Notes under the pieces: model-generated | Told to the model about the DNA's origin: nothing | What the model saw: the letters and a program-made list of their open reading frames with translations, nothing else | Databases searched by the model: none | Program-made: the position numbers and the translations under genes | Shown: piece after piece, positions 5,823-34,529 of the stretch | How the letters are laid out: the number at the start of each line of letters is the position of its first letter | Position numbering within the stretch: position 1 is the stretch's first letter | DNA from: Flavobacteriaceae bacterium | GTDB lineage: Bacteria; Bacteroidota; Bacteroidia; Flavobacteriales; Flavobacteriaceae | Assembly (NCBI GenBank): GCA_002700465.1 | Contig: PADT01000016.1 | Location: 1 to 34,529 of the forward strand | Reading direction: 5' to 3' | Length of the DNA stretch: 34,529 nucleotides

Positions 5823-5825
5823 TAT

Positions 5826-16303: not shown

Positions 16304-16314
16304 GATTTATATTT

Positions 16315-16924: not shown

Positions 16925-16928
16925 CCAA

Positions 16929-17561
16929 GTGAATTCAAATAATGAACAAGAATTAATTGACAAGGGACTTCTTCTTCCTTTGATGGAATCATTTTATACA
17001 ATTCAGGGAGAAGGATATCATAAGGGTTCTGCAGCTTTTTTTATTAGATTGGGTGGTTGTGATGTTGGGTGCCATTGGTGTGATGTTAAAGAAAGTTGGG
17101 ATCCTAAAATACATCCTCCTACAAGTATTGATGATATTGTTTTTAATGTTAAAAAGAGTTCTAATACTGTAGTTATTACAGGTGGGGAGCCCTTAATGTG
17201 GAATATGAGTCCAATAACTCGACTATTAAAAGACAATAATATTAACATTCACATTGAAACTTCAGGAGCATATAAATTTTCTGGAAATTGGGATTGGATT
17301 TGTCTGAGTCCAAAGAAAAATAAGAATCCTCTTAATGAAATATACTCAAAAGCAGATGAGCTAAAAATGATAATTTATAATTTAGACGATCTTAAATTTG
17401 CTGAAATTGAATCAAAAAAAGTTTCTAATAGTTGTTTGTTGTATCTTCAACCTGAGTGGAGTAAACGAGAAAAAATTATGCCAATTATTGTAGATTATGT
17501 TATGAGAAACCCTAAATGGAAAGTGTCTTTACAAACCCATAAGTATTTAAATATTCCTTAG
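16929..17561 (+). CDS. queE: 7-carboxy-7-deazaguanine synthase (radical SAM)
   Basis: QueE converts 6-carboxy-tetrahydropterin to 7-carboxy-7-deazaguanine in the queuosine pathway, using S-adenosylmethionine and a 4Fe-4S cluster. The cluster motif CX3CX2C is in GGCDVGCHWCDVKESW (residues about 42-57). Substrate and SAM motifs follow: SFYTIQGEGYHKGSAAFFIR before it, and VVITGGEPLMW and NIHIETSGAY after it. 210 residues is normal. The GTG at 16929 gives the N-terminus typical of flavobacterial homologues and sits just behind a promoter box; an ATG at 16942 is out of frame. The 3' end overlaps the convergent NamZ gene by 4 bp (TTAG). No other queuosine gene is in the window. Confidence 0.95.
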   Translation: MNSNNEQELIDKGLLLPLMESFYTIQGEGYHKGSAAFFIRLGGCDVGCHWCDVKESWDPKIHPPTSIDDIVFNVKKSSNTVVITGGEPLMWNMSPITRLLKDNNINIHIETSGAYKFSGNWDWICLSPKKNKNPLNEIYSKADELKMIIYNLDDLKFAEIESKKVSNSCLLYLQPEWSKREKIMPIIVDYVMRNPKWKVSLQTHKYLNIP

Positions 17562-18748: not shown

Positions 18749-19979
18749 GAATTTTGAATCATATATGGCTAAAAGATTTATAAAATCAAAGCCATATAAA
18801 AATACCGTTTCATCTCCAATAATAAAAATATCAATATTATCAATTGTAATCGGTATTGTGATGATGATTATTTCTATATCATCAAGTGTTGGTTTACAGA
18901 AAACTATAGAATCTAAGGTTTCTTCTTTTTTTGGTCATGTATCAGTGTCAAACTTTGAGAATAACTCTTCTTTTTCATCAATAAACCCTTTGAACAGCGA
19001 TTTTGATTATACTTTATTAAACACTAACTATAGTATTAAATATTTTGATAAAGTAGCTTATAAATCTGCTTTGATTATTAAAAATAATAGTTTTGAAGGG
19101 GTTGTTTTAAAAGGAATAGAGGCAGATTTTAATTGGGAAAATTTTTCAAACTATATTACAAAAGGAAGAGTACCTTCTTTTGAAAAGAATATATCAAATG
19201 AGGTGATAATTTCTGAAAATCTATCAAAAAAATTATTAATTAATTTAGATGATAAATTTAAAACTACTTTCTTTAAATCAAATTCAAGATCCGTTCCTAA
19301 TGAGAGAATTTTTAAGGTTGTAGGAATTTATAGTTCTGGACTTATTGAATTTGATGAAACGTATTTTTTTGGAGATATAAGGCATATTCAAAAAATGAAT
19401 AAGTGGAATAATGATGAGTTTGGAAGTGTCGAGATATTTCTAAAAAAATATTCTTACACTAATGATGTTTCTGTTGATTTATATAATCAAACATCAACTG
19501 AAACTAGTGTAATGTCAATTAATGAAAAGTTTCCAGAAATTTTTAATTGGATGTCTTTATTTGACTTTAATGTTTTATTAATAATAATCATTATGATTCT
19601 TGTAGGTGGTATCAATATGATTACGGCTCTTTTAGTTACTGTTTTAGAAAAAACAACAGTTATTGGTATTCTTAAAACTATTGGAGCTTCTAACAAATCA
19701 GTTAGATCTATATTTTTAATTAATGGAACTTATTTAATTGGTTTAGGCTTATTAATTGGAAATTTTATTGGTATTGGATTAATATTCTTTCAGAATCTTA
19801 CAGGATTTATCAAATTAGATCCTCAAACTTACTATGTATCTGAGTTTCCATTTGATTTTAATTTTATATCACTTGTAATTTTGAATTTAGGAGTATTGTT
19901 TTTTTGTTTTTTGATGTTAATAATTCCATCCTATATTATTACTAGAATCTCTCCCTCTAGTTCAATTAGAACTAAATAA
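18747..19979 (+). CDS. FtsX/LolE-like ABC transporter permease
   Basis: A 410-residue inner-membrane protein of the FtsX-like (MacB/LolC/E type) permease family. After a short cytoplasmic N-terminus (YMAKRFIKSKPYKNTVSSPI) comes the first membrane helix (SILSIVIGIVMMIISISS, residues 28-45), a large periplasmic domain (about 60-265), and three C-terminal helices: one in LLIIIIMILVGGINMITALL, one around NGTYLIGLGLLIGNFIGI and one in LVILNLGVLFFCFLMLII. The cytoplasmic coupling region VLEKTTVIGILKTIGASN lies between them, as in LolC/E. No ATPase or partner gene is adjacent, so the substrate is unknown; lipoprotein release is possible. It starts in a CATG shared with the divergent NamZ gene. Confidence 0.85.
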   Translation: MNFESYMAKRFIKSKPYKNTVSSPIIKISILSIVIGIVMMIISISSSVGLQKTIESKVSSFFGHVSVSNFENNSSFSSINPLNSDFDYTLLNTNYSIKYFDKVAYKSALIIKNNSFEGVVLKGIEADFNWENFSNYITKGRVPSFEKNISNEVIISENLSKKLLINLDDKFKTTFFKSNSRSVPNERIFKVVGIYSSGLIEFDETYFFGDIRHIQKMNKWNNDEFGSVEIFLKKYSYTNDVSVDLYNQTSTETSVMSINEKFPEIFNWMSLFDFNVLLIIIIMILVGGINMITALLVTVLEKTTVIGILKTIGASNKSVRSIFLINGTYLIGLGLLIGNFIGIGLIFFQNLTGFIKLDPQTYYVSEFPFDFNFISLVILNLGVLFFCFLMLIIPSYIITRISPSSSIRTK

Positions 19980-19985
19980 AGAAAT

Positions 19986-20021
19986 TTACATTAATGTAAT
20001 AAGCATGTATATTATTACATT
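19986..20021. repeat. Overlapping inverted repeats, operator-like, before the CBS-like gene
   Basis: TTACATTAATGTAA (19986-19999) is a perfect 14-bp palindrome. Its right part also belongs to a second inverted repeat: AATGTAATAA (19993-20002) and TTATTACATT (20012-20021), 10 bp perfect, 9 nt apart. Together they place three TTACATT/AATGTAA half-sites in 36 bp, the last overlapping the putative -7 box TACATTTG. No T run follows in the plus direction, so an intrinsic terminator is less likely than a protein-binding site. Confidence 0.6.
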
Positions 20022-20023
20022 TG
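20016..20023 (+). promoter_or_regulatory. Putative -7 box (TAnnTTTG) of the CBS-like/DpaL unit
   Basis: TACATTTG matches the consensus and ends 9 nt before the ATG at 20033. An in-frame TTG at 20021 falls inside this box and is therefore an unlikely start. TTAA at 19991-19994 is a weak -33 candidate at 21-nt spacing. The box overlaps an inverted repeat arm, so a regulator bound there would block the promoter. Confidence 0.5.
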
Positions 20024-20032
20024 CAAAGCTTT

Positions 20033-21016
20033 ATGAATTATTATAAAAACATTTTAGAAACAATTGGGAATACCCCTCTTATTAAATTAAATAATTTAAC
20101 AAAGAATATAGATGCTCTAGTTTTGGCAAAAGTTGAGTTCTTTAACCCTGGTAGTTCAATTAAAGATAGAATGGCTTTAAAAATGATTGAAGACGCTGAA
20201 AATGATGGTCGTTTGAAACCTGGATATACTATTGTTGAGGGAACCTCTGGGAATACAGGCATGGGCTTAGCATTAGCTGCTATAGTTAAAGGATATAAAT
20301 TAATATGTGTCTCAACGGATAAACAATCAAAAGAAAAATTTGATGTTTTAAAAGCTGTGGGAGCTAAAGTTGTTGTTTGTCCAACGAACGTAAAGCCTGA
20401 AGATCCAAAATCTTACTATTCAACTGCAAAAAGAATCGGAGAAGAAACGCCTAATTCTTGGTATGTTAATCAATATGATAATCCTTCAAATTCACTTGCC
20501 CATTATGAGACTACAGGACCTGAAATATGGGACCAAACAGATGGTAAAATAACACATTTTGTAGTTGGAGTTGGTACTGGTGGAACAATTTCTGGTGTAG
20601 CGAAATTTTTAAAAGAAAAAAATCCACAAATTAAAATTTGGGGAATTGATACATACGGATCTGTTTTTAAAAAATATCATGAAACTGGAATTTTTGATCA
20701 AAATGAAATATACCCTTACATTACAGAGGGAATAGGTGAGGATATTTTACCTAAAAATGTAAATTTTGATTTAATAGATGGATTTGAAAAAGTAACTGAT
20801 GAAGATGCTGCAATTTATACTAGAAAATTAGCTAAACAAGAAGGTATTTTTGCTGGTAACTCATGTGGAGCAGCTGTTAAAGGTGTCCTTCAATTAAAAC
20901 ATAATTTTAAAAAAAATGATGTTGTTGTAGTTTTACTTCATGATTCAGGAAGTCGATATATAGGAAAAATATATAATGATGAATGGATGAAAAAAAATGG
21001 TTTTAGCTTAGATTAA
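20033..21016 (+). CDS. Cystathionine beta-synthase-like / cysteine synthase family PLP enzyme
   Basis: A fold-type II PLP enzyme of 327 residues catalysing a beta-replacement on serine or O-acetylserine. The Schiff-base lysine is K44 in NPGSSIKDRMAL, the substrate loop is TSGNTG (71-76), and the PLP-phosphate loop is GVGTGGTISG. Segments such as NSWYVNQYDNPSN, LAHYETTGPEIW, EGIGEDILP and the ending DEWMKKNGF resemble the catalytic core of cystathionine beta-synthase more than CysK, but the regulatory CBS and heme domains are absent. I prefer the ATG at 20033 over TTG 20021. It overlaps the next gene by 1 bp (TAATG), so the two PLP enzymes are coupled. Cystathionine, cysteine or diaminopropionate synthesis are all possible. 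Confidence 0.85.
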   Translation: MNYYKNILETIGNTPLIKLNNLTKNIDALVLAKVEFFNPGSSIKDRMALKMIEDAENDGRLKPGYTIVEGTSGNTGMGLALAAIVKGYKLICVSTDKQSKEKFDVLKAVGAKVVVCPTNVKPEDPKSYYSTAKRIGEETPNSWYVNQYDNPSNSLAHYETTGPEIWDQTDGKITHFVVGVGTGGTISGVAKFLKEKNPQIKIWGIDTYGSVFKKYHETGIFDQNEIYPYITEGIGEDILPKNVNFDLIDGFEKVTDEDAAIYTRKLAKQEGIFAGNSCGAAVKGVLQLKHNFKKNDVVVVLLHDSGSRYIGKIYNDEWMKKNGFSLD

Positions 21017-22134
21017 TGAATGATTTTATTATTAATAATTGCTCAAATAAATTAGATAATAATCTTTCACATTCAATACTCAAAAATAGCAAATCTTATA
21101 AATTTCACACCAAGCAACATTACTACAATAAGACCCCACTTGTTCAATTAAATTCTTTATCTAATCATTTATGCCTGAACAACATCCATATTAAAGATGA
21201 ATCAAATAGATTTGATTTAGATGCTTTTAAAGTTTTGGGTTCAACTTACGCACTTTATGAGATTTTAATAAAAAACTCTAACATTGATGTATTTTGTACG
21301 GCAACAGATGGTAATCATGGGAAAGGCTTAGCGTGGGCTGCTCAACAATTCAATAAAAAAGTAATTATTTTTGTACCAAGAGATACGTCAAAAAATAGAA
21401 TTAAGGCTATTAAATCTTATAATGCGATTGTATATCAGCTTGATTTAAATTATGAAGAAACCTGTTTGTATGCATCTAACAAATGTGATGAAAATGGCTG
21501 GCAGTTGGTTCAAGATGCCTCATGGGAAAATTATGAAGAAATTCCATCTCTAATTATGTCTGGTTATTTAACTCATTTTAAGGAAATTGAGTTCCCAACT
21601 AATAGTAATTTTAAATCTAAATTTGATATAATTTTTTTACAATGTGGAGTTGGAAGTTGGGCTGCTTCTTGTATTTGGTATTATTTAAATCATTACAAGG
21701 AACATCGTCCAAAAATAGTTTTAGTTGAGCCTGAAGAATCGTGTGGTGTTTTTGAATCTTTTAAAAATGGTGATAGGATGACTCCCAATACTTCATTTAA
21801 TACTATTATGGCTGGTTTGAACTGTGGAATTCCTTCCAAAAACGCTTGGGAAATTATTAAGATTGGATGTGATGCTGTTATTAAAATATCTGATGAAGAA
21901 GTTAAGAAAGCGATGAGACAATTATATAATCCAATCGGAAATGATATAAAAATAATTTCAGGGGAATCTGGTGCAGCTGGTTTAGCTGGATTAATTAAAG
22001 TTTTAGACTTTGAAAAATCTAATGATTTAAAAAAACATCTTAATTTAAATCAAGATTCAAAAATTCTTTTGTTTAATACTGAGGGTGCTACAGACCCAGA
22101 TAATTTTAATAAAATTGTATCAAAATTTAATTAA
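21016..22134 (+). CDS. dpaL: Diaminopropionate ammonia-lyase
   Basis: A fold-type II PLP enzyme that cleaves 2,3-diaminopropionate to pyruvate and two ammonia. The family signatures are clear: YNKTPLVQLNSLS, IKDESNRFDLDAFKVLGSTY with the PLP lysine K72, then TATDGNHGKGLAWAAQ (catalytic Asp98), VQDASWENYEEIP and QCGVGSWAASCI, and near the end GESGAAGLAG. At 372 residues it is somewhat shorter than the E. coli YgeX protein (about 398), mainly because of a shorter segment between K72 and D98. It is translationally coupled to the CBS-like gene (1-bp overlap). The 3' end overlaps the convergent M28 peptidase by 8 bp (TTAATTAA). Confidence 0.92.
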   Translation: MNDFIINNCSNKLDNNLSHSILKNSKSYKFHTKQHYYNKTPLVQLNSLSNHLCLNNIHIKDESNRFDLDAFKVLGSTYALYEILIKNSNIDVFCTATDGNHGKGLAWAAQQFNKKVIIFVPRDTSKNRIKAIKSYNAIVYQLDLNYEETCLYASNKCDENGWQLVQDASWENYEEIPSLIMSGYLTHFKEIEFPTNSNFKSKFDIIFLQCGVGSWAASCIWYYLNHYKEHRPKIVLVEPEESCGVFESFKNGDRMTPNTSFNTIMAGLNCGIPSKNAWEIIKIGCDAVIKISDEEVKKAMRQLYNPIGNDIKIISGESGAAGLAGLIKVLDFEKSNDLKKHLNLNQDSKILLFNTEGATDPDNFNKIVSKFN

Positions 22135-23461
22135 ATACATCTTTTGGAAATACTATGATACTTTCTTGATTATTAGTGCCAACGCTGGAAACTCCAAATA
22201 AAAAATTATCTATAACTATTCCATTTAAAGTAAATTCATTAGTATCACCAACAAACCTGCTGTTTTCCCAATAAGCTGAGGTGGTTTTTCTCCAATATAT
22301 TTTATAACCTAATATTTTAGAGTTTTTTGGGTTTTCCCATTTAAGTTTAGTAGAAGGTTTTACTGCTCCTCCAATTTTTACATTTTTTGGTTCTTCAGGA
22401 CTCCAACCTAAGCTTGCTAAATTTATTGCATTTACTGCTGTTAATTTTTTTGCATATTTGAAATTAACTCCAGAAATAACATCACCATATTCAATACCAT
22501 TTTCAGTTCTAATATCTTGATGTTGTCTATTGTAATTTTCGTGAGCCTCCATTATTCTCACTCCAGCATATCCTAAATCATTAAATGGTCTGTGATGACC
22601 CCCTCTTCCAAATCTATCTAATCTGTATATCATCATTGGATTCATTTCTGGCATATACTTGCGAACAGTGTTATGAATATATCTTGCTAGTTGTCTTGAA
22701 TTTCCATCAACTTCTCCACCATAAAACCTTCTTCTTTTAATAGAAACTTCTGATTCATTAGCTGGAGTGGGTTCAGAGAATATTCTAAAACTTAAATTAT
22801 CAATTACTCCGTCTACACCTTCAATATTTCCAATCATATCATTATTTAATATTCCAATAATTTCCCAATTATTTTTTTTAGCGTAATTAGCTAATCCAGC
22901 ACCCCCATATAGACCTTGTTCTTCTCCAGATAACCCTACGTATATAATACTATTATCAAATTTATACTTACTTAATACTCTTGCTGCTTCAATTACCCCA
23001 GCCATTCCGGAGGCATTATCATTTGCACCAGGTGAGAGTGAAGTGTAGTTGTTAGGATCACTGACTCTACTATCAATATCACCACTCATAATTATGTATC
23101 TGTTAGGATTTACTAATCCTCTTTGAATAGCAATTACATTATTAATCCAAACATCTTTGATTAACCTTCTTTTGTTTTTTATGAAATAATTTTTTTGATA
23201 AAAAACCTCTAAGCAATTATTGCAATTTGAGGAAATATCTTTAAAAGACTTCTTTATCCATCTTCTTGCTGCGCCAATTCCAGTTGTAATTGATAAAGTG
23301 TCACTTAATGTGTGCCTTGTTCCAAATGACACTAGTTTTTTAATATCACTTTCAATTCTATTTTCGGAAATTGAATCGATAATATTGTAATAATTTTCTT
23401 CGCTTTGCGAATAACACAATGAGGTAAAAATTAAAATAGGTATGATTTTGAAATAATTCAT
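22127..23461 (-). CDS. Secreted M28-family metallopeptidase with C-terminal beta domain
   Basis: A 444-residue exported protein: signal peptide FKIIPILIFTSLCYSQ, a peptidase M28 (aminopeptidase-type, two-zinc) domain at about 35-350, and a fibronectin-III-like C-terminal segment beginning at PKNVKIGGAVKPSTKLKWEN. Metal-site landmarks are SGDIDSRVSDP, SPGANDNASGMAGVIEAA, VGLSGEEQGLYGG, NNDMIGN and a late His in the HHRPFND or EAHENYNRQHQD region. The first ligand position, usually His in SGHxDS, is Asp here. It follows the acyl-CoA dehydrogenase by 31 nt on the same strand and may be read through from that operon, though its role is unrelated. Confidence 0.88.
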   Translation of the reverse strand: MNYFKIIPILIFTSLCYSQSEENYYNIIDSISENRIESDIKKLVSFGTRHTLSDTLSITTGIGAARRWIKKSFKDISSNCNNCLEVFYQKNYFIKNKRRLIKDVWINNVIAIQRGLVNPNRYIIMSGDIDSRVSDPNNYTSLSPGANDNASGMAGVIEAARVLSKYKFDNSIIYVGLSGEEQGLYGGAGLANYAKKNNWEIIGILNNDMIGNIEGVDGVIDNLSFRIFSEPTPANESEVSIKRRRFYGGEVDGNSRQLARYIHNTVRKYMPEMNPMMIYRLDRFGRGGHHRPFNDLGYAGVRIMEAHENYNRQHQDIRTENGIEYGDVISGVNFKYAKKLTAVNAINLASLGWSPEEPKNVKIGGAVKPSTKLKWENPKNSKILGYKIYWRKTTSAYWENSRFVGDTNEFTLNGIVIDNFLFGVSSVGTNNQESIIVFPKDVFN

Positions 23462-23492
23462 ACCTAAATTTAATATAAAAACTTTTAATTTA

Positions 23493-25295
23493 TTAAAAAC
23501 AATATTTGTTTTCTTCTTTTAGTTTGTCTGCAATACTATTCTTTAATTTAATAACGTTTGGATATTCGTAATATTTTGTAAATCTTTTTAGCCCCATCAA
23601 TAATCCTTTTTGTTCATCTCCTGAAGCAAAAGATACTATCACTTCTTTTCCTTTTGATTGTATAATATCCACAGCTTTATATAGATATAACTGAGTCATA
23701 GCAATTTGGTTAGTTTGAGTTTCTCTTCCAAGTCTATTACAATTTTTTTCAGTTCTTAGAAGTGCAGACTCTGTCATGTATATTTCAATTAGTATATCTG
23801 AAACTGCTAACAACATTTGTTGATGCTCTTCAAGTTTTTCTCCGAATTTTTTTATTCCAGCACCAGCCAACATTAAAAACACCTTTTTAAGATTTTTTAA
23901 TATTAATTTTTCTTGAGCAAATAGTTTAGTTAAATCAGGCACTTCAAATGATGGAATTCCCATCAATTCATCAGCTACTTTAGTAGCAGGATTGATAAAA
24001 TCAATATGACCTTTCATTCCTTTTTTGATTAGCATTCCAACGCTTAACATTCTATTTATTTCATTAGTACCCTCATATATTCTACCGATTCTACAATCTC
24101 TCCATGCACCTTCCATTGGGGTTTCTGCTGAAAAGCCCATCCCACCGAACACTTGAATACCTTCATCAGCAATATTCTGCATATCTTCACTTATAGCTAC
24201 TTTTAACAGTGAACATTCTATAGCGTACTCTTCTACACCTTTAAGCTCTGATTCCTGAAAGCTATTACCACTTTCATGTCTAATCTTAATTCGATCCTCA
24301 ATATCCTTAGCAGCTCTGTATGTTGCTGATTCACCAACGTAAGTATCTGTGGCCATTGTAGCAATTTTTTCTTTTATGGCTTCAAAATCAATAATTTTTG
24401 TATTAAATTGAATTCTTTCGCTTGCATATTGCACAGCATATGATGTCACTCTTTTTTGCGCATCTAAGCAAGCTGCTGCTAATTTTATTCTACCTACATT
24501 TAAAGAGTTTACTGCTATTTTAAAACCACTTCCTCTTTCTGAAAGCATATTTTCAACTGGTACTTTTGTTTCATTGAAAAATACTTGTCTAGTTGAAGAT
24601 GAATGTATACCTAGTTTTTTTTCCTCATCACCCAACGTAATTCCATTATTAGATTCGTTAGGTACTATAAAACCTGTTATGTTCTTGTCATCATCAATTC
24701 TTGCAAAAACAATGAACAATTTTGCAAATCCAGCATTTGAAATCCACATTTTTTGACCTGTAATTTTATAATGAGTTCCATCCTCACTTAAAACTGCTTT
24801 TGTTTTTCCACTATTAGCATCTGATCCAGCACTTGGCTCAGTCAAACAATACGATCCAAATATTTCTCCACTGGCAAGTTGTGGAACAAACTTTTTATTT
24901 TGTTCTTTATTTCCATAAAGAACTATTGGCATTGTTCCAATTCCTGTATGTGCTCCAAATGCTGTTGATAAAGAACCTACAGCTCCTGAAATAGTTTCAC
25001 ATACTAACATTGTTGAAACAAATCCCATTCCCATACCTCCATACTCTTCCGGAACTGCTACGCCTAAAAAGCCTAGATCTCCAGCTTTTTTCATAATATC
25101 TTCAGTTAATTTATAATCTTTATTTTCAAATCTCTCACGATGAGGCATAACTTCTTTATCGATAAAATCTGAAACGGCTTGCTTCATCATTAGTTGTTCC
25201 TCAGAAAAATCCTCTGGTGAAAAGACATTTTCACATTCAGTTTCTTTAATTATAAATTCGCCTCCTCTAGTTATATTTTTTTCATTTGTACTCAT
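23493..25295 (-). CDS. Acyl-CoA dehydrogenase (long form)
   Basis: FAD-dependent acyl-CoA dehydrogenase, first step of fatty-acid beta-oxidation. The 600-residue length, with about 180 residues beyond the classic 380-400-residue domain, resembles very-long-chain enzymes. Residues about 25-150 form the N-terminal helical domain (LGVAVPEEYGGMGMGFVSTM). YCLTEPSAGSDANSG and WISNAGFAKLFIVFARI bind FAD, and the catalytic Glu is in RIYEGTNEINRM (near 413). The C-terminal helical extension ends KLKEENKYCF. It follows the thiolase gene by 9 nt and is the last beta-oxidation gene of the marR-fadB-fadA operon; the electron-transfer flavoprotein genes are not in the window. Confidence 0.95.
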   Translation of the reverse strand: MSTNEKNITRGGEFIIKETECENVFSPEDFSEEQLMMKQAVSDFIDKEVMPHRERFENKDYKLTEDIMKKAGDLGFLGVAVPEEYGGMGMGFVSTMLVCETISGAVGSLSTAFGAHTGIGTMPIVLYGNKEQNKKFVPQLASGEIFGSYCLTEPSAGSDANSGKTKAVLSEDGTHYKITGQKMWISNAGFAKLFIVFARIDDDKNITGFIVPNESNNGITLGDEEKKLGIHSSSTRQVFFNETKVPVENMLSERGSGFKIAVNSLNVGRIKLAAACLDAQKRVTSYAVQYASERIQFNTKIIDFEAIKEKIATMATDTYVGESATYRAAKDIEDRIKIRHESGNSFQESELKGVEEYAIECSLLKVAISEDMQNIADEGIQVFGGMGFSAETPMEGAWRDCRIGRIYEGTNEINRMLSVGMLIKKGMKGHIDFINPATKVADELMGIPSFEVPDLTKLFAQEKLILKNLKKVFLMLAGAGIKKFGEKLEEHQQMLLAVSDILIEIYMTESALLRTEKNCNRLGRETQTNQIAMTQLYLYKAVDIIQSKGKEVIVSFASGDEQKGLLMGLKRFTKYYEYPNVIKLKNSIADKLKEENKYCF

Positions 25296-25304
25296 AATAA
25301 TATT

Positions 25305-26489
25305 TTAATTTAAAAATTCATAAATTCCTGCCGCTCCTTGCCCTGTTCCAACACACATGGTAACCATTCCATATTTTGATTTTCTATCTCTCATTTCGTT
25401 GAATAATTGAACCGATAATTTTGCTCCAGAACATCCTAGTGGATGACCGAGAGCGATAGCGCCTCCGTTAACATTGATTATTTCAGGATTTAAATTTAAC
25501 TCCCTTATTACTGCTAATGATTGAGATGAAAAAGCTTCATTTAGTTCGATTAGTTCAATATCATCAATTTTCATTTTAGCTTGATTTAAAACTTTTGGAA
25601 TAGCTTTAACTGGGCCTATACCCATTATTTTTGGAGGTACACCAGCAACTGCATAGTTAACAAGTCTAGCAATTGGTTCAACATTTAATTCTTTAACCAT
25701 TTTTTCACTCATTATTAAAACAAATGCTGCACCGTCACTCATTTGAGAAGAGTTTCCTGCTGTTACACTACCATTCATGGTAAAAACTGGTCTAAGTTTA
25801 TTTAAAACCTTAAGATTTGTATCTTTTCTAGGTCCTTCATCAGTATCAACAATATATTCTCTAAATGCCTTTTTACCATTTTCATCAAGAAATGTTTCCT
25901 TAACTTTTATTGGAACTATTTGAGATTTGAATTTACCATTTGAAATAGCATCTACTGCTTTTAAATGAGAATTTAATGCGAACTCATCTTGATCTTCTCT
26001 ATTAACATTAAATTGTTGGGCAACTTGCTCAGCAGTTAAACCCATTCCCCAATAATAATCTTCTTTACCCTGTTGGGCAATAGCATAGTCAGGTACAGGT
26101 TTGTATCCTCCCATAGGAATAAAACTCATGCTTTCAACTCCTCCAGCTATTATACATTCAGCCATTCCAGATTTAATTTTTGCAGACGCCATTGCTATAG
26201 TTTCTAAGCCTGATGCACAATACCTATTAACCGTAACACCAGGAACATCTTCAACTTTTAATCCCATTAAAGAAATTACTCTACCTATATTTAGACCTTG
26301 TTCTGCTTCAGGTGTTGCATTTCCGACTATTACATCATCAATTCTAGTTTTATCAAGTTCAGGAATTTCGCCCATCATATGATTTATTGTTTCTGACGCG
26401 AGTTCATCAGGTCTTTTGAATCTAAATAATCCTTTTGGCGCTTTTCCAACAGCTGTTCTATAAGCTTTAACTATATATGCTTCTTTCAT
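25305..26489 (-). CDS. fadA: Acetyl-CoA C-acyltransferase (3-ketoacyl-CoA thiolase)
   Basis: Thiolase of 394 residues, which cleaves 3-ketoacyl-CoA with CoA to acetyl-CoA and a shortened acyl-CoA. The nucleophilic Cys is in VNRYCASGLETIA (near 90), the catalytic His in GGAIALGHPLGCSGA and the second Cys in MVTMCVGTGQGAAGI. NGSVTAGNSSQMSDGAA and ELNEAFSSQSLAV are also family signatures. The 3-nt spacing from the upstream 3-hydroxyacyl-CoA dehydrogenase/hydratase gene argues that it acts in beta-oxidation rather than acetoacetyl-CoA synthesis. The ATG at 26489 gives the typical start KEAYIVKAYRTAVGKAP. Confidence 0.95.
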   Translation of the reverse strand: MKEAYIVKAYRTAVGKAPKGLFRFKRPDELASETINHMMGEIPELDKTRIDDVIVGNATPEAEQGLNIGRVISLMGLKVEDVPGVTVNRYCASGLETIAMASAKIKSGMAECIIAGGVESMSFIPMGGYKPVPDYAIAQQGKEDYYWGMGLTAEQVAQQFNVNREDQDEFALNSHLKAVDAISNGKFKSQIVPIKVKETFLDENGKKAFREYIVDTDEGPRKDTNLKVLNKLRPVFTMNGSVTAGNSSQMSDGAAFVLIMSEKMVKELNVEPIARLVNYAVAGVPPKIMGIGPVKAIPKVLNQAKMKIDDIELIELNEAFSSQSLAVIRELNLNPEIINVNGGAIALGHPLGCSGAKLSVQLFNEMRDRKSKYGMVTMCVGTGQGAAGIYEFLN

Positions 26490-26492
26490 AAT

Positions 26493-28898
26493 TTAATTTC
26501 TTAAAGGTTTACCTGTTTTTAATATATGCTGTATTCTTTCTAGTGTTTTTCTTTCAGAACAAAGAGAAAGAAAAGCTTCTCTTTCTAAGTCTAATAAATA
26601 TTGTTCATTTACAAATGTCGCTTTTGATAAATCTCCTCCGCTAATAACATATGCAATTTTATTAGCAATTTTTTGATCATGTTCAGAAATATATTTTCCG
26701 GCTTTCATTGTGTCAGTACCAACCATGAACATTCCTAACGCCTGTTTTCCCAAAACTTTAATATTTTTTTCACTGCAAGGTGGTAAATAACCATAGTCTG
26801 ACATTAAAATTGCTTGCTTTTTAGCTATTGAAATTTGATGATTTTTATTCATTATTATAGTATCATTATTTGGCTCTAAATAGCCTAAATCAATTGCTTC
26901 ATGAGCAGAGGTAGATGTTTTAGCCATTCCAATATTTAAAAAATATTCCTGCAGAACATTAAGTTCAACATCATTTTTACTAAATTTTCTTGAAGCTCTT
27001 AGTGCCATTTCTTTACAACCGCCTCCACCAGGGATTAGTCCAGCACCCACTTCAACTAAACCAATATAACTTTCACTGTAAACTACCGCTTTATCACAAT
27101 GCATTGTTACTTCACAACCTCCTCCTAATGTAAGTCCGTGAGGAGCTGCAATTACAGGAATATTAGAATATCTTAATTTCATCATACTGTCTTGAAAGTA
27201 TTTTATTGCTAAATTAATTTCATCATATTCTTGTTCGGCAGCTGCCATAAATATCGCTCCTAAATTTGCTCCTGCAGAAAAATGAGATCCTTCATTTCCA
27301 ATAACAATTCCTCTGTGATTTTTCTCGGCTAAATCAACAGCTTTATTTAAACCCATTAATACTCCTTGTCCAAGGGTATTCATTTTAGTTCTAAATTCTA
27401 TATTCAACACACCATCTCCTAAATCTTTAATTATCGAATCATTATTTTCCCAAACGATTGAGCTTTTATTTAAATTATTAAGAATTATTAAAGAATCTTG
27501 ACCTGGTTTAATAAGAAAAGATTTAGAGTTCAAATCATAATAATTTATTTTACCATTTTCAATTTTATAAAAACAGTCAATATTGTTATTTATCATTTCA
27601 GAAACCCATTTGGCTGGTTTAAGCCCTAAAGATTCCATTATTTCAACTCCTTTTTTTATACCAATTGAATTCCAAATTTGAAAAGGCCCGTTTTTCCATC
27701 CAAACCCTGCTCTTAATGCATCATCAATTCTATATAGTTCATCTGAGATTTCAGGAATTCTATTTTGAATGTATGAAAACATTGTACCAAAATTGAATCT
27801 GTAAAACTCTCCTGCTTTGTCAGTTCCATTAACCAATATTGAAAACCTATCAATAACTTTAGTAATTTTTTTAGCACTATTTAAAGTGTCAAATGATACT
27901 TTTTTTACAGGTGAATATTCTAAAGTTTTTAAATCTAAAGAAAGAATAGTTGATTTTCCATTTTCATCTTTAACTCTTTTATAAAACCCACCATCAGTTT
28001 TAGAACCAAGCCAGTTATTTTCTAACATTTTATAAATGTAATCTGGAAGCTTAAAAGTTTCTCTAAACTCGTCATTTGGACAATTATCATAAATACCAGT
28101 TGCAACATTTACAGTTGTATCTAAGCCAACTACATCACTTGTTCTGAAAGTAGCAGATTTTGGACTTCCAATAATCGGTCCAGTTAACTTATCTATTTCT
28201 TCAATTGTCAAATTTAATTTTTCAACATTATTTAAAATATTTACCATTCCAAAAGTTCCAATTCTATTTCCTATGAACCCAGGTGTATCTTTAGCTAAAA
28301 CAGAATCTTTTCCAAGAAATCTTTCTCCAAAATCGTTTAAAAATTCAATTGTTTTTGGTTCGCAATCAGGACCTGGAATAATTTCAAATAATTTTAAGTA
28401 TCGTGGTGGATTAAAAAAATGAGTTACTGCAAAATTCTTTCTAAAGTCTTCAGATCTTCCTTCATTCATTTGCTTAATAGGAATCCCTGAAGTATTTGAA
28501 GTTATAAGTGTTCCTTTTGTTCTGTGCTCTTCAATTTGATTAAACACAATTTGCTTAATATTTAATTTTTCAGTTACTACTTCAATAATCCAATCTACTT
28601 TACTTATTTTATGTAAATCATCAGTAAGATTACCTAGTTCAATTCTACTGGCAAAATTTCTATGATACAGTGGAGCAGGTTTTGACTTGATACACCTTTG
28701 AAACATTTCATTTACTATTCTGTTCTTGACTTTTTTGTTGTCAAGTGAAAGACCAAGTTTCTCTTCTTTTTCGTTTAATTTATTTGGAGCTATGTCAAGA
28801 AGCAAAACATTAATTCCAATATTTGCGAAATGACACGCTATACCAGATCCCATAACACCAGATCCAATTACTGCAACATTTTTAATATTTCTTTTCAT
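26493..28898 (-). CDS. fadB: Fused 3-hydroxyacyl-CoA dehydrogenase / enoyl-CoA hydratase
   Basis: A bifunctional beta-oxidation enzyme of 801 residues. The N-terminal dehydrogenase starts NVAVIGSGVMGSGIACHFAN (NAD site), with HFFNPPRYLKLFEIIPGP and KDTPGFIGNRIG, followed by the helical dimerisation domain. The C-terminal part (about 490-690) is a crotonase-fold hydratase: SAGANLGAI, HGLTLGGGCEVTMHCD and EVGAGLIPGGGGCKE, with both catalytic Glu positions occupied. This order, dehydrogenase first, is that of Bacillus FadN rather than E. coli FadB, so the symbol is used loosely. It lies 17 nt after marR and 3 nt before the thiolase, forming one operon. Confidence 0.94.
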   Translation of the reverse strand: MKRNIKNVAVIGSGVMGSGIACHFANIGINVLLLDIAPNKLNEKEEKLGLSLDNKKVKNRIVNEMFQRCIKSKPAPLYHRNFASRIELGNLTDDLHKISKVDWIIEVVTEKLNIKQIVFNQIEEHRTKGTLITSNTSGIPIKQMNEGRSEDFRKNFAVTHFFNPPRYLKLFEIIPGPDCEPKTIEFLNDFGERFLGKDSVLAKDTPGFIGNRIGTFGMVNILNNVEKLNLTIEEIDKLTGPIIGSPKSATFRTSDVVGLDTTVNVATGIYDNCPNDEFRETFKLPDYIYKMLENNWLGSKTDGGFYKRVKDENGKSTILSLDLKTLEYSPVKKVSFDTLNSAKKITKVIDRFSILVNGTDKAGEFYRFNFGTMFSYIQNRIPEISDELYRIDDALRAGFGWKNGPFQIWNSIGIKKGVEIMESLGLKPAKWVSEMINNNIDCFYKIENGKINYYDLNSKSFLIKPGQDSLIILNNLNKSSIVWENNDSIIKDLGDGVLNIEFRTKMNTLGQGVLMGLNKAVDLAEKNHRGIVIGNEGSHFSAGANLGAIFMAAAEQEYDEINLAIKYFQDSMMKLRYSNIPVIAAPHGLTLGGGCEVTMHCDKAVVYSESYIGLVEVGAGLIPGGGGCKEMALRASRKFSKNDVELNVLQEYFLNIGMAKTSTSAHEAIDLGYLEPNNDTIIMNKNHQISIAKKQAILMSDYGYLPPCSEKNIKVLGKQALGMFMVGTDTMKAGKYISEHDQKIANKIAYVISGGDLSKATFVNEQYLLDLEREAFLSLCSERKTLERIQHILKTGKPLRN

Positions 28899-28915
28899 TT
28901 TCGTTCTTTAGTGAG

Positions 28916-29353
28916 TTAAAAATTGAATATTTTTTTATTTTTAATTAGAGTATTAATTTTTTCAATTGTATTATGAAAATTTTCAAAAGCTTCATCTCCA
29001 ATCTCGTCTTTAATAGCTTGATTGAATTTTAAAACAGCTACCCTTGAAGCATCTCTATTAACCTTACCTCTTTCAGTTAAATAAATAAGTACACTTCTTC
29101 CATCATCAGGATTACCTTTTCTTTCAATTAATTTCTTTTCTTCAAGAGATTTAAGTGTTCTAGATAAACTAGTTGCTTCCATTCCCATTTTTGGACCTAA
29201 TGAAGTCGAAGGGGTGCCTTTTTTAGGATCTATACTTAAAAGAGTAAAGCCAGTAGCCATTGTGGAATCATATTTGGAGGCTTCTTCATTATACATCCTT
29301 GCAATTGCTTGCCACGTTGATCTTAAAAGATGGTCTATGGTTTTTTTCTCCAT
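28916..29353 (-). CDS. MarR-family transcriptional regulator of the fad operon
   Basis: A 145-residue winged-helix dimeric repressor of the MarR family. The DNA-binding part includes MGMEATSLSRTLKSLEEKKL (recognition helix, near 76-95), the wing IERKGNPDDGRSVLIYLT, and the N- and C-terminal helices for dimerisation. It is the first gene of the operon with fadB, fadA and the acyl-CoA dehydrogenase, so it probably senses an acyl-CoA or fatty acid and controls beta-oxidation, itself included; the ligand is inferred only from context. Just upstream lie a TAAATTTG promoter box (5 nt from the ATG) and a long palindrome suited to a MarR dimer. Confidence 0.92.
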   Translation of the reverse strand: MEKKTIDHLLRSTWQAIARMYNEEASKYDSTMATGFTLLSIDPKKGTPSTSLGPKMGMEATSLSRTLKSLEEKKLIERKGNPDDGRSVLIYLTERGKVNRDASRVAVLKFNQAIKDEIGDEAFENFHNTIEKINTLIKNKKIFNF

Positions 29354-29358
29354 TTGAC

Positions 29359-29366
29359 CAAATTTA
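29359..29366 (-). promoter_or_regulatory. Putative -7 box (TAnnTTTG) of the marR-fad operon
   Basis: On the minus strand TAAATTTG matches the consensus and ends 5 nt before the marR ATG at 29353, predicting a leaderless or nearly leaderless mRNA. No TTTG is found at the -33 distance; that place is occupied by the palindrome, which would let a bound regulator exclude RNA polymerase. Confidence 0.6.
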
Positions 29367-29403
29367 ATAAAAAAATACTATGCACGCATAGTATTTTTTT
29401 ATT
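29366..29403 (-). terminator. Terminator of purL and likely MarR operator
   Basis: A perfect inverted repeat of 18-bp arms (29366-29383 and 29386-29403) around a 2-nt centre. In the minus direction it starts 5 nt after the purL stop and forms an A-tract/hairpin/U-tract structure typical of an intrinsic terminator; it is symmetrical, so it could also work the other way. The 20-bp core ATACTATGC-AC-GCATAGTAT (29375-29394) is a dimer-sized palindrome covering roughly -21 to -40 relative to the predicted marR start, exactly where an autorepressor would sit. Confidence 0.75.
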
Positions 29404-29407
29404 TTTT

Positions 29408-32400
29408 TTAAATATTCTTATTTATCCAGTTTTTTGCACTTTCAAATGCTATAATCCAAGGAGAAACTTCGTCTTTTCTGTTGTTTGGGTAGTAGGGCCA
29501 ATTCCAAGGGAAAGTTGATCTTTCCAAATGGGGCATCATTGCTATGTGTCTTCCGTTAGAACTGCTAATTATTGCTGTATTATAGTCCGAGCCATTTGGA
29601 TTAGCAGGGTAGGAGCTATATCCATATTTTCCTATTATATTATAATTTGTTTCTTTATATGGAAGTTTAAATTTTCCTTCACCGTGTGCTGACCAAATAC
29701 CTAGTTTTGAACCAGATAAATCTTTAAACATTATTGAATCATTTTTTTGTATTTCAACAGATGAAAAAATACATTCAAATTTATTAGAATCATTGTGATC
29801 CATTTTAGGTTTTATCTCGTGCTCAGGGTGAAGCAACCCAAGTTCTACAAATAATTGACATCCATTACAAACTCCTAACGATAATGTGTTATCTCTTGTG
29901 TAAAAATTCATTAAACTTTGTTTAGCTTTTTCATTGTATAAAAATGAGCCAGCCCATCCCTTGGCAGAACCAAGAACATCTGAATTAGAAAATCCACCTA
30001 CTGCTACAATAAAATTAATATCCTCTAAATTTTCTCTACCAGAAATCAAATCAGTCATATGCACATCTTTAACTTCGAATCCTGCTAAAGTCATAGCGTA
30101 GGCCATTTCTCTTTCAGAGTTACTTCCTTTTTCTCTAATTACCGCAGCTTTTACTTTCTTTAAATTATTGTGATTGATTTTTCCGTTAAAATTATTAGGA
30201 AATTTAAAATTTAACGGATGCTTTTTGAAATTTTCAAATCTTTCTTTTGCTTTAATTTTGCCACTCTGATTTTGATCTAATAAATAGGATGTTTTAAACC
30301 AAATGTCTCTGTATTTAGATACATCTAGATTTATATTATTAGTATTAGATTTCAGTTCTAATTTAGAATTATTAGTAACCTCTCCAATATTTATAAAATT
30401 GATATTATTTGTATTTAAAACTTCTTCAATTTCTTTTTTACCTTGAAAAACTAAACCAAGACTTTCGCTAAACAATAATCTTATTAAATCTTTTTCTTTA
30501 AATTGGTTTAGATCAATATTTGCTCCTAGATTATTTTCAGAAAAACACATTTCTAATATCGTGGTTATTAATCCACCTGAACTAATATCGTGACCAGAAG
30601 AAATTAGATTTTCTTTTATTAGATTTTGAAAAACATTAAATGTTTTTTTAAAATAAGAGGGATCACAAGAGTCGATTGTTGAAGATCCTATGAAATCTAA
30701 TGTTTGACTAAAAGCAGAACCCCCAATATTAAAATCATTATTTGCCAGATTAATATAATATATGTCTTGATCATTATACTGAAAAACTGGTTCTATTATA
30801 TTAGAAATATTATTGCAATTTGCTGCTGCAGAAATAATTACCGTTCCAGGTGATATGACCTCTTGATCTTTATATTTCTGCTTCATTGATAGAGAATCTT
30901 TTCCGGTAGGAATATTTATTCCTAATCCAATTGCAAAATCTGAGCAAGATTCAACAGCTTCATATAATCTAGCATCTTCACCAGGATTATTACATGGCCA
31001 CATCCAGTTTGCAGATAATGTAACAGATTCTAAAGCTTTTTCAAGCGGAGCCCATATAATGTTAGTTAGTGCTTTCCCAATCGCTAACCTAGACCCAGCT
31101 CTTGGATTAATTAATGCTGGTAATGGTGCATGTCCAATTGAAGTTGCTACACCGTTTTTTCCGCAATAGTCCAATGCCATAACTCCACAATTATTTAGTG
31201 GAAGTTGTAAAGATCCCACACATTGCTGTTTGGCAACTTTCCCGGTAACACACCTGTCAACTTTGTTTGTTAACCAGTCTTTACATGCAACTGATTCTAG
31301 ACTTAATACATTTTGCAAGTAATTTTCAAAAAAATCTACGCTATACGTCTTATCAGAAAATTTGGTGGTTATAGTTTTATCAGTCATTATAGTTTTTGGT
31401 GAACTTCCAAAAAAGTCTGATAATGACAAGTTTATTGGGGATGAGTTGTTTTTTTTAGATTTAATTTGAAATTTTTCGTCGTTTGTAATTTTACCAACCT
31501 TATAACATGGAGCTTTTTCTCTGTCAGCTATTGTTTTAAGTTTTTCATACTTATTTTCTGGTATAATTAATCCCATTCTTTCCTGTGATTCGTTTCCGAT
31601 AATTTCTTTTGCAGAAAGTGTTTTGTCGCCAACTGGAAGTTGATCTAAATTGATAATACCGCCAGTTTCTTCAACAAGTTCTGAAAGACAATTCAAATGT
31701 CCTCCAGCTCCATGATCATGAATTGAAACTATAGAGTTTTCTTCAGATTCTACAAAAGCTCTAATAGCATTAGCTACTCTTTTTTGCATTTCAGGATTAG
31801 ATCTTTGTACTGCATTAAGCTCTATTCCAGAGTTGTACTTTCCGGTTTCTGTTGATGAAACAGCTGCTCCGCCCATACCAATCCTATAATTATCTCCACC
31901 TAAAACAACAATAACATTATTTTCACTTGGCTTATCTTTTAAGCTCTGATTTTCTTTAGCAAAACCAATTCCTCCCGCTAGCATTATGACCTTATCAAAG
32001 CCAAGCGTTTTATTGTTCTCAATGTGTTCGAAAGTTAATACTGATCCAGAAATTAAGGGTTGACCAAATTTATTTCCAAAGTCTGAAGCTCCATTAGAAG
32101 CTTTTATTAAAATATCAATTGGAGTTTGGTATAACCAAGGTCTTTCTTCTTTTATCCATTTTCTTTTTTCGTCATATCTTGGGTATGATGTCATGTAAAC
32201 AGCAGTACCTGCAAGAGGAAGTGATCCTTTACCACCTGCAAGTCTATCTCTAATTTCTCCACCAGATCCAGTAGCAGCTCCGTTAAACGGTTCTACAGTA
32301 GTTGGAAAATTATGTGTTTCAGCTTTTAGGGAAACAACTGAACTGAATTTAGATGTTTGAAAATAAGAAGGTTTGTTTCCATGTTTAGGTGCAAATTGCT

Positions 32401-33052
32401 CGACTACAGGTCCTTTTACAAAAGCTACATTGTCTTTGTATGCAGAAACAATTTCATTAGGGTTTTTCTTAGATGTTTTTTTTATGAGTTTAAATAACGA
32501 GCTTTCTTTTTCAATACCATCAATTATAAATTTTCCATTAAAAATTTTATGTCGACAATGTTCAGAATTTACCTGTGAAAATCCAAAAACTTCACTATCG
32601 GTTAGTTTTCTTCCTAATTTATTTGATAATTCATTTAAATAATTTATTTCTTCATTATTTAACGCAAGACCTTCTTTAAGATTATAATCTGAAATGTTTT
32701 CGATTTCAATAATTGGCTTTGGACTTGCAGAAATTTTGAATAAATTTTGGTCAAGTATTGGATAATTTTCAGAAAGCATTGGGTCAAAGTCATCACTAGA
32801 TTTTTTAGGAACAAATTTTTCAATTCTTAAAATTCCTGTTATTGCCATATTTTCTGAAATTTCCACTGCATTGGTACTCCATGGAGAAATCATGGTTTTT
32901 TTTGGACCTATAAAGTTTGAATCAATAGAAGCTTGATTAATATGTTTTGCTACAAATAACCATTCTAATTTTTTTAAATCAATTTCATTTAATTTAGTTG
33001 ATGAATCTACGGCGAAAATTGTTTCAAATTTATCTTGAAAATAGAGAATCAT
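29408..33052 (-). CDS. purL: Phosphoribosylformylglycinamidine synthase (large single-chain form)
   Basis: Fourth step of purine synthesis: FGAR plus glutamine and ATP to FGAM. This is the large one-chain enzyme (1214 residues; proteobacterial ones are about 1290), fusing PurS-like, synthetase and glutaminase parts. Seen in order: N-terminal PurS-like and linker region (1-200) with FGFSQVNSEHCRHKIFNG, the synthetase core with LKAETHNFPTTVEPFNGAAT, then GGEIRDR, SIHDHGAGGHLNCLSEL, GHDISSGGLITTILEM, and a C-terminal class I glutaminase (about 965-1214) with its Cys in LGVCNGCQLF (near 1060), AHGEGKF and MMPHLERS. All catalytic motifs are present. It ends in the hairpin shared with the marR control region. 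Confidence 0.97.
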   Translation of the reverse strand: MILYFQDKFETIFAVDSSTKLNEIDLKKLEWLFVAKHINQASIDSNFIGPKKTMISPWSTNAVEISENMAITGILRIEKFVPKKSSDDFDPMLSENYPILDQNLFKISASPKPIIEIENISDYNLKEGLALNNEEINYLNELSNKLGRKLTDSEVFGFSQVNSEHCRHKIFNGKFIIDGIEKESSLFKLIKKTSKKNPNEIVSAYKDNVAFVKGPVVEQFAPKHGNKPSYFQTSKFSSVVSLKAETHNFPTTVEPFNGAATGSGGEIRDRLAGGKGSLPLAGTAVYMTSYPRYDEKRKWIKEERPWLYQTPIDILIKASNGASDFGNKFGQPLISGSVLTFEHIENNKTLGFDKVIMLAGGIGFAKENQSLKDKPSENNVIVVLGGDNYRIGMGGAAVSSTETGKYNSGIELNAVQRSNPEMQKRVANAIRAFVESEENSIVSIHDHGAGGHLNCLSELVEETGGIINLDQLPVGDKTLSAKEIIGNESQERMGLIIPENKYEKLKTIADREKAPCYKVGKITNDEKFQIKSKKNNSSPINLSLSDFFGSSPKTIMTDKTITTKFSDKTYSVDFFENYLQNVLSLESVACKDWLTNKVDRCVTGKVAKQQCVGSLQLPLNNCGVMALDYCGKNGVATSIGHAPLPALINPRAGSRLAIGKALTNIIWAPLEKALESVTLSANWMWPCNNPGEDARLYEAVESCSDFAIGLGINIPTGKDSLSMKQKYKDQEVISPGTVIISAAANCNNISNIIEPVFQYNDQDIYYINLANNDFNIGGSAFSQTLDFIGSSTIDSCDPSYFKKTFNVFQNLIKENLISSGHDISSGGLITTILEMCFSENNLGANIDLNQFKEKDLIRLLFSESLGLVFQGKKEIEEVLNTNNINFINIGEVTNNSKLELKSNTNNINLDVSKYRDIWFKTSYLLDQNQSGKIKAKERFENFKKHPLNFKFPNNFNGKINHNNLKKVKAAVIREKGSNSEREMAYAMTLAGFEVKDVHMTDLISGRENLEDINFIVAVGGFSNSDVLGSAKGWAGSFLYNEKAKQSLMNFYTRDNTLSLGVCNGCQLFVELGLLHPEHEIKPKMDHNDSNKFECIFSSVEIQKNDSIMFKDLSGSKLGIWSAHGEGKFKLPYKETNYNIIGKYGYSSYPANPNGSDYNTAIISSSNGRHIAMMPHLERSTFPWNWPYYPNNRKDEVSPWIIAFESAKNWINKNI

Positions 33053-33078
33053 TGAAGAACTTATTTAAATTATAAGCT

Positions 33079-33086
33079 CAAAAATA
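33079..33086 (-). promoter_or_regulatory. Putative -7 box (TAnnTTTG) of purL
   Basis: On the minus strand TATTTTTG lies 26 nt before the purL ATG, in the 106-nt gap between rsmB and purL. No good -33 element is visible. The remaining part of the gap is low-complexity A/T (for example AAATTTAAATTT near 33115), with no convincing terminator for the upstream gene and no purine riboswitch that I can recognise. Confidence 0.35.
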
Positions 33087-33158
33087 TAAGAAATAAAGCA
33101 GAAAACTTCTCTTAAATTTAAATTTTAAATAACGATTTTGAATTACTTATTAACAACA

Positions 33159-34370
33159 TTATTTATAGCTTAATCTAGCCATGTAAAACCCATCGAAACC
33201 AGTTTGATTTGGACTTATTTTTTTTTCATCTTCTTTCTTAAAAGCTTTGCCAATATCAGATTTTAAAAATTCATCAATTTGTTGTTCGTTTTCAGACGGA
33301 AGAATAGAGCAGGTTGCATAAACCAGTTTTCCGTCTTTTTTAATCATTGGAGCATATTTTTTTAGAATTTCTTGTTGAGTGGATCTAATTTTTTCTAAAA
33401 AATCTAAGGAAAGATTCCATTTAGAACCTGGATTTCTTTTTAATACACCTATGCCTGAACATGGAGAATCAATTAATAACCTATCTATTTTACCGTACAA
33501 TCTTTTGATAGGTTTATTGTTTTCGATTACCCTAGTTTCAATATTAAATGCACTATTTCTTTTTGCTCTTCTTTTAAGTTCATGTAATTTATTTTTATAA
33601 ATATCCATGGCAATTATTTGACCTTTATTTCCAGATAGAGCTGATAAATGAAGAGTTTTACCACCAGCTCCGGCACATACGTCACATATTTTCATACCAT
33701 CTTCTATTTTAAGAAATGGTGCCACTAATTGTGATGAGGCATCTTGGATTTCAAACAACCCGTTTTTAAAAGCTTCTGTTAAAAACAAATTTTTTCTTAT
33801 GATTAACTTAAGAGCATCTGGAAATCCCTTTATTTTTTCAGTTTGAATATCTTCATCATTAAGAATTGCTTGAAGTTTGTCAATTGTAGTATTTAAAGTG
33901 TTAGTCCTAATTATAACAGATGCTTTCTGATTCAAAGCATTTAATTCCTTTTCCCAATTTTTTTCACCAAGCTCATCAAGTCCGATTTTGTCTAACCAGT
34001 CAGGTACTGACTCTCTAAATTTTCTTATTTTAATTAGTTCATCAAACTTGCCTTTTATTCTTCTGTTGGGCGTTTCATTAAGTTCCGGCCAATTTGGAAG
34101 TTGAATTCCTTTTAACACGGCCCATACTGCAAATATTTTCCATAGTTCTTTATACTTAAAAGGACTCTTTGCCTGAGCAATTTCTGAGTATAATCTTTTC
34201 CATCTAATTATCTCGTAGCTGGTTTCAGCTATAAACCCTCTATCTCTACTTCCCCATCTTTTATCATATTTAAGAACTTTTTCAATAGTTTTATCAGCAT
34301 ATAATTTCTGATTAAAGACACCATCAAGTACTTTAACAACAGCAACAACTAAATTTTTGTGAAGACGCAT
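33159..34370 (-). CDS. RsmB/NOP-type 16S rRNA (cytosine-C5) methyltransferase
   Basis: A SAM-dependent RNA m5C methyltransferase of the RsmB/NOP family (403 residues). The N-terminal third (1-140) is a helical RNA-binding region (RDRGFIAETSYEIIRWKRLY). The PUA-like/linker portion leads to FEIQDASSQLVAPFLKIEDG, the SAM site KICDVCAGAGGKTLHLSAL, then the two conserved cysteines: DSPCSGIGVLKRNPGSKW (release Cys) and LVYATCSILPSENEQQ (catalytic Cys). Family membership is firm, but whether it methylates the RsmB position or another rRNA site cannot be told. A TATATTTG box lies 14 nt upstream. Confidence 0.9.
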   Translation of the reverse strand: MRLHKNLVVAVVKVLDGVFNQKLYADKTIEKVLKYDKRWGSRDRGFIAETSYEIIRWKRLYSEIAQAKSPFKYKELWKIFAVWAVLKGIQLPNWPELNETPNRRIKGKFDELIKIRKFRESVPDWLDKIGLDELGEKNWEKELNALNQKASVIIRTNTLNTTIDKLQAILNDEDIQTEKIKGFPDALKLIIRKNLFLTEAFKNGLFEIQDASSQLVAPFLKIEDGMKICDVCAGAGGKTLHLSALSGNKGQIIAMDIYKNKLHELKRRAKRNSAFNIETRVIENNKPIKRLYGKIDRLLIDSPCSGIGVLKRNPGSKWNLSLDFLEKIRSTQQEILKKYAPMIKKDGKLVYATCSILPSENEQQIDEFLKSDIGKAFKKEDEKKISPNQTGFDGFYMARLSYK

Positions 34371-34384
34371 TTTACAGTTTTGCG

Positions 34385-34392
34385 CAAATATA
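34385..34392 (-). promoter_or_regulatory. Putative -7 box (TAnnTTTG) of the rRNA methyltransferase gene
   Basis: On the minus strand TATATTTG matches the consensus, ends 14 nt before the ATG at 34370, and has TTAG 19 nt upstream, three of four bases of the -33 TTTG. It lies in the 68-nt gap after the partial upstream gene. Confidence 0.48.
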
Positions 34393-34438
34393 GGTTTTAA
34401 ACTTAATCTTTCTAATCTGAGTAATAATTAGATAGGAT

Positions 34439-34529
34439 TTATTTTTTATTTTTGGATCTAAGTTTTTTCATCATCTCTTTCCTAAAATCATCTTCAATTC
34501 TAAATAGCGATACAGTTTTTTTTAAGGTC
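34439..34529 (-). CDS. C-terminal end of an unidentified protein (partial)
   Basis: On the minus strand a frame is open from the window edge to a TAA at 34441-34439, giving 29 residues: it runs through KKTVSLFRIEDDFRKEMM and ends in the basic tail KKLRSKNKK. The position, 68 nt upstream of the methyltransferase on the same strand, and the charged composition typical of a protein end suggest a real C-terminus. The fragment is too short to identify. Confidence 0.55.
   Translation of the reverse strand, partial: TLKKTVSLFRIEDDFRKEMMKKLRSKNKK

Follow-up and report, generated by a model that had tools for sequence, protein, structure and literature searches.

The window, i.e., the whole stretch of 34,529 nucleotides that was analysed, carries on its minus strand a purL gene followed by marR and three fad-like genes, and belongs to an assembly of 1.18 Mb that is 66.6% complete; its near relatives are recorded as Flavobacteriaceae, Flavobacteriales, Cryomorphaceae or Bacteroidetes. 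Between purL and marR lies a spacer of 54 bp (29354-29407, with the purL stop at 29408 and the marR ATG at 29353). The features considered below are the following (the promoter consensus and the position of its box are those given in the available excerpt of PMC9723704):

29408-33052, minus strand: purL, phosphoribosylformylglycinamidine synthase, 1214 aa (NF003672 above its cut-off; stop codon at 29410-29408)
29366-29403, minus strand: the full inverted repeat with 18-bp arms, a candidate purL 3' hairpin with T-rich tail (arms 100% complementary, fold z -4.91)
29375-29394, no strand assigned: operator core ATACTATGC-N2-GCATAGTAT, predicted MarR dimer site at -21 to -40, a palindrome conserved upstream of marR
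29359-29366, minus strand: TAAATTTG, the putative sigma-A -7 box for marR, 5 nt from the ATG (consensus TAnnTTTG)
29354, minus strand: predicted marR transcription start with a 1-nt leader, placed from the box position of -12 to -5
28916-29353, minus strand: marR, MarR-family winged-helix regulator, 145 aa (Pfam PF01047, E 2e-09)
26493-28898, minus strand: fadB-like 3-hydroxyacyl-CoA dehydrogenase/enoyl-CoA hydratase, 801 aa (Pfam domains above their cut-offs, named FadB models below theirs)
25305-26489, minus strand: fadA-like thiolase, 394 aa (TIGR01930 above its cut-off)
23493-25295, minus strand: fadE-like acyl-CoA dehydrogenase, 600 aa (NF058590 above its cut-off)

The perfect inverted repeat that had been described in this spacer is indeed present: a repeat search placed its arms, 18 nt each and fully complementary, at 29366-29383 and 29386-29403, i.e., 2 nt apart. 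When 67 nt of minus-strand RNA were folded, the structure reached -15.9 kcal/mol (z -4.91), which 1 of 200 dinucleotide shuffles equalled, and of 32 gene 3' ends tested across the window, purL (-5.0) and rplQ (-5.1) alone had folds with z near -5 when measured against mononucleotide shuffles. Rfam had no match at the 54-bp spacer. Elsewhere in the window, positions 3451-3482 (plus strand), before the S4 gene, match the Rfam S4-Flavobacteria ribosomal protein leader (RF03141, 39.9 bits).

The regulator encoded next to the spacer carries a MarR winged-helix domain (PF01047, 37.6 bits against a cut-off of 24.6), and its AlphaFold model (mean pLDDT 87.8) has the MarR fold: 286 PDB entries matched at E<=0.001, and the 50 listed among them bear MarR-type regulator names. 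The best match was the MepR-DNA complex 4lln (TM 0.84, 22% identity), and the SlyA-DNA and FabT-DNA complexes were also among the structural matches. The protein scored below the NCBIfam cut-offs of all 12 MarR-type models listed, and an identity as FabT was rejected (FabT equivalog, 22.1 bits against a cut-off of 200).

Conservation of the palindrome and the genes behind its copies

The core of the repeat had been proposed to be a MarR operator, and we read its conservation from 149 genomes of the family (141 with a marR match, 110 of which, 30 plus 80, were read as loci) and 80 named records, giving 191 marR-bearing loci, or 184 after the removal of L001 and six identical copies. The 18-bp dyad TAYTATGCRYGCATARTA lies within 400 nt upstream of marR, at three mismatches or fewer, in all 184 non-identical loci: 161 are exact, 16 have one mismatch, five have two and two have three, a count that describes conservation and is no blind test, as the consensus was drawn from the same 184 loci. 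A reversed-stretch control matched none of the 184 at up to two mismatches and one at three, with the rest at four or more, and a coding-stretch control matched no locus at up to three. The core is kept upstream of marR even where purL lies elsewhere. Outside the order, where marR shares 39-49% identity, six of ten loci have a site at two or three mismatches, three match only at four, which is the chance level of the reversed control, and one has no match.

Sites in these class-level relatives (L280-L289) often read TAGTATGCATGCATAC or similar, which suggests co-evolution of protein and site. Seventeen of the 184 loci have tandem operators, i.e., two (16 loci) or three (one locus) operator-like sites at three mismatches or fewer (L009, L022, L047, L049, L078, L082, L086, L102, L105, L132, L135, L158, L174, L179, L182, L185 and L188). 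Tandem operators were also seen in a second family of the order, where they separate marR from a divergent AMP-binding (acyl-CoA ligase-like) gene (L193, 1473-1518). One record titled as a Klebsiella pneumoniae MAG (L143) encodes a flavobacterial marR with its operator, and is probably mislabelled or contaminated.

The palindrome also keeps a constant distance from a promoter motif. The flavobacterial sigma-A -7 box has the consensus TAnnTTTG at -12 to -5 (PMC9723704, in the available excerpt), and such a box begins 8-10 nt downstream of the 18-mer in 165/184 marR loci; in the other 19, the first match lies at offset 0 (six), 5 (one) or 7 (one), or there is none (11). This fixed spacing puts the operator 18-mer at about -22 to -39, centred near -30 and thus approximately where a -33 element would sit, with the 20-bp core at -21 to -40. 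The promoter that had been predicted is supported by this spacing, and the core position and the box 5 nt from the marR ATG agree with what had been claimed.

The marR mRNA had also been predicted to be leaderless, a state reported for 5.5% of mRNAs in Flavobacterium psychrophilum (same excerpt of PMC9723704). Going by the geometry of the box, this is plausible at the locus itself, where the predicted leader is 1 nt, yet it would be a lineage-specific trait that only part of the genus shares. The distance from box to start codon is 5-6 nt in 12 of 21 genus loci and 13-16 nt in the other nine, and on the genus tree the near-start box does not fall on one side of one branch but needs two changes. 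In the wider set, the distance is 16-20 nt in 112 of the 173 loci with a box, and within 8 nt in 18.

Genome-wide, exact sites occurred in 41 of 60 relatives, 131 of 149 genomes of the family and 21 of 198 genomes drawn from the phylum, against none in any of these sets for the reversed pattern. They accompany marR: in the family, 130 of 141 marR-bearing genomes have one, versus one of eight without marR (Fisher p 8e-7, kinship ignored), and in the phylum draw the figures are 20 of 31 with a marR match (E<=1e-25) versus one of 167 without (Fisher p 1e-18, kinship likewise ignored). The exceptions run in both directions. Eleven marR-bearing family genomes lack an exact site, while four genomes without a marR match have sites: G138 (seven at up to one mismatch, one of them exact, at etfB), G015 (one, with one mismatch), G164 (one exact, at the MDR oxidoreductase gene; a genus member, 79% complete, in which purL was not matched either, so that it offers no natural control) and G286 from the phylum draw. 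It is possible that marR was missed in these drafts.

The genes behind the copies are few in kind. There are at least 67 distinct exact sites, and of the subset of 67 examined, 62 precede marR-fadBAE (28, an undercount, because the known marR sites of family genomes were mostly left out), etfB (18), an MDR oxidoreductase (8), a 4Fe-4S protein (5) or an acyl-CoA dehydrogenase (3); two more precede a protein of 530-560 aa (one member without a Pfam match) and three precede other genes. The etfB sites are often divergent from a pyruvate-dehydrogenase-beta-like gene. A search of the window's own genome for sites at other fatty-acid genes, as had been advised, yielded a second site, with two mismatches to the window's core, which stands 65 nt before an MDR oxidoreductase gene and close after a gene judged by eye to be enoyl-CoA-hydratase-like. 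We claim no third, because a shortened 12-mer at up to one mismatch gave four sites versus two in the control; etfB was not found in this 66.6% complete assembly.

Going by the sequence comparisons (the dyad and how far it is conserved, its distance from the promoter box, the kinds of gene that follow it and how consistently it accompanies marR), the 20-bp palindrome is very probably an autogenous operator of the adjacent MarR repressor, which would govern fatty-acid beta-oxidation in Flavobacteriaceae and relatives. We put the probability of this reading, including the promoter-block and ligand model given below, at about 0.88. The operator part of the original prediction is thereby strongly supported at the level of sequence comparison: the site is conserved, its genome-wide regulon is small and it co-occurs with marR.

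The hairpin behind purL

The same repeat had been taken for the terminator of purL. It has the hairpin and U-tract form of an intrinsic terminator: besides the fold described above, 7 of the 8 nt after the 18-mer are T, and it passes a scan of the 120 nt behind purL. A consensus scan for a G+C-containing stem (at least three G-C pairs, loop of 3-8) did not list the spacer hairpin, and no site in the window passes a stricter terminator scan. The clearest terminator-like element in the window lies after rplQ (5756-5830, plus strand), a strong hairpin with U-tract at z -5.77.

Position behind purL, together with this form, would suit a palindrome that is just the purL terminator and resembles a MarR site in size by coincidence. 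However, the same sequence stands upstream of marR where purL lies elsewhere, and upstream of unlinked beta-oxidation genes, and the terminator-like purL hairpins of relatives differ in sequence from the operator. Conservation of the operator away from purL thus rules this reading out, and we assign it a vanishingly small chance.

A dual role is a different matter: the operator hairpin may have replaced a lost dedicated terminator, so that one palindrome would act as DNA operator for marR and as RNA terminator for purL. In all 21 genus loci the purL stop lies 13-16 nt before the 18-mer, and when the 120 nt behind purL were scanned, each of these loci showed a hairpin followed by a T-rich tail, which was always the operator, and no other hairpin turned up; the scan picked out a separate hairpin in 13 of 21 relatives whose purL lies elsewhere (some of these relatives being closely related to one another). 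Perfect arms average 12.1 beside purL (n=18) versus 8.7 at other marR loci with a co-directional upstream gene (n=152) and 6.6 at those with a divergent or no upstream gene (n=14). Similarly, the tail holds 7.0 T in 8 beside purL versus 5.7 and 5.9 at other marR loci, in a genus that is also more A+T-rich. The fold and U-tract of the purL hairpin resemble those after rplQ, and the few one-sided core changes within the genus, about two only, keep pairing on the purL sense strand (read by eye).

Other observations count against a dual role. Within the genus, arms are equally long at etfB sites between divergent genes (mean 12.1, n=10), and average 10.4 at 17 other regulon sites, so A+T-richness or the needs of the operator would explain their length; arm length is ambiguous as proof of termination. 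The T-rich tail doubles as promoter spacer. With a median of -8.9 kcal/mol (range -4.4 to -14.2, n=21), the operator hairpins fold less stably than the 13 dedicated hairpins of relatives, whose median is -13.9 (range -9.9 to -16.4), and the perfect arms of the operator, which range from 3 to 18 bp in the genus, are down to 3-5 bp in four of the 21 loci. G+C-rich terminators are rare in this lineage (4 in 166 kb versus 29 in 229 kb of other Flavobacteriaceae, with shuffles giving 0.12 and 0.44 per 10 kb), and 8 of the 21 control purL ends have no hairpin, so that the purL hairpin may be dispensable. A wobble asymmetry at exact marR sites not beside purL (T..G 39 versus C..A 17) was rejected as evidence of selection on RNA, being inflated by related sequences. 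On this balance we hold the dual role only tentatively, at somewhat short of an even chance, and give the same odds to the narrower claim that the spacer hairpin materially terminates purL.

An operator whose hairpin has no role in RNA is about an even bet. Here purL would be read through into marR or ended by Rho, with bound MarR acting as a roadblock at most. Operator and T-rich spacer persist beside varied neighbours, 13 loci having a divergent gene upstream (by an ORF heuristic). Terminator-like sites are scarce, with one found against 7.3 expected from shuffles (15000-34529), and in each of three convergent gene pairs of the window the two genes share 8 bases (11392-11399, 15884-15891 and 22127-22134), leaving no room for terminators between those genes. 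Against this reading, any purL transcript extending into the operator should fold into a hairpin with U-rich sequence behind it, and such structures often cause some termination.

The terminator claim is thus not established. The hairpin and U-tract form is there, and it is the only terminator-like hairpin behind purL in 21/21 genus loci; but palindrome and T-rich spacer go with marR regardless of the upstream gene, and at divergent etfB sites of the genus, which have no need of a terminator, the A/T extension of the arms is just as long. Going by the sequence comparisons, it is possible that one palindrome serves as operator and purL terminator in this streamlined genus. The three functions that had been thought to be packed into the spacer are partly supported: operator and promoter are supported, while the terminator is unproven and the leaderless state is plausible but lineage-specific.

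A predicted regulon of fatty-acid degradation

In the model that we favour, the MarR repressor would control marR-fadB-fadA-fadE, etfB and accessory oxidoreductases. Its operator would occupy the -33 region of a sigma-A promoter whose -7 box, TAAATTTG, begins 9 nt after the 18-bp core, so that RNA polymerase should be kept out while a MarR dimer is bound. Release of MarR, and with it induction of the operon, would come from a ligand derived from fatty acids (a fatty acid or an acyl-CoA, a guess from the make-up of the regulon). In this streamlined genus purL is followed at once by the marR promoter, and transcripts that run on from purL into it would carry the operator hairpin and U-rich sequence, which may end such transcripts by default. 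That the fad operator took over the job of a lost purL terminator, and that MarR occupancy, i.e., fatty-acid status, tunes the 3' ends of purL, strikes us as unlikely.

The kind of system is known, and the regulon assignment is the new and useful part. MarR, MepR, SlyA and OhrR are likewise autogenous repressors with a winged-helix fold, a dyad of 18-20 bp beside their own promoter and a small regulon; here, by contrast, the protein shares 22% identity with MepR, and the predicted operator falls where a Bacteroidota TAnnTTTG promoter has its -33 region and serves a beta-oxidation regulon. FabT, a regulator of fatty-acid synthesis, has in common with it the MarR fold and a link to lipid metabolism (the FabT-DNA complex 6jbx being among the structural matches), but its identity is 16% and the targets here are degradation genes. 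FadR of the GntR family and the TetR-family PsrA and Bacillus FadR are beta-oxidation repressors that keep fad and etf genes shut off in the absence of fatty acid; they do the job proposed here with unrelated protein families and operators. In inverted DNA-uptake signals, one palindrome is said to serve possibly both as DNA for a protein and as a terminator hairpin, whereas here the DNA role is that of a predicted repressor operator and the terminator role only a candidate one. Inverted uptake signals that double as terminators are the subject of PMC1852404.

Our search of the literature outside subscription journals and regulon databases found, among the papers listed, no published description of this regulator, operator or regulon. 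Flavobacterium psychrophilum strongly raises the expression of its beta-oxidation genes in response to fish mucus and plasma (PMC9723704), an induction of the fatty-acid pathway for which the predicted MarR regulon could account. For much of Flavobacteriaceae, the analysis predicts which regulator and operator control fatty-acid degradation and which genes make up the regulon, and the operator that abuts purL is a natural case in which to ask whether, as a genome is streamlined, an operator can take the place of a terminator.
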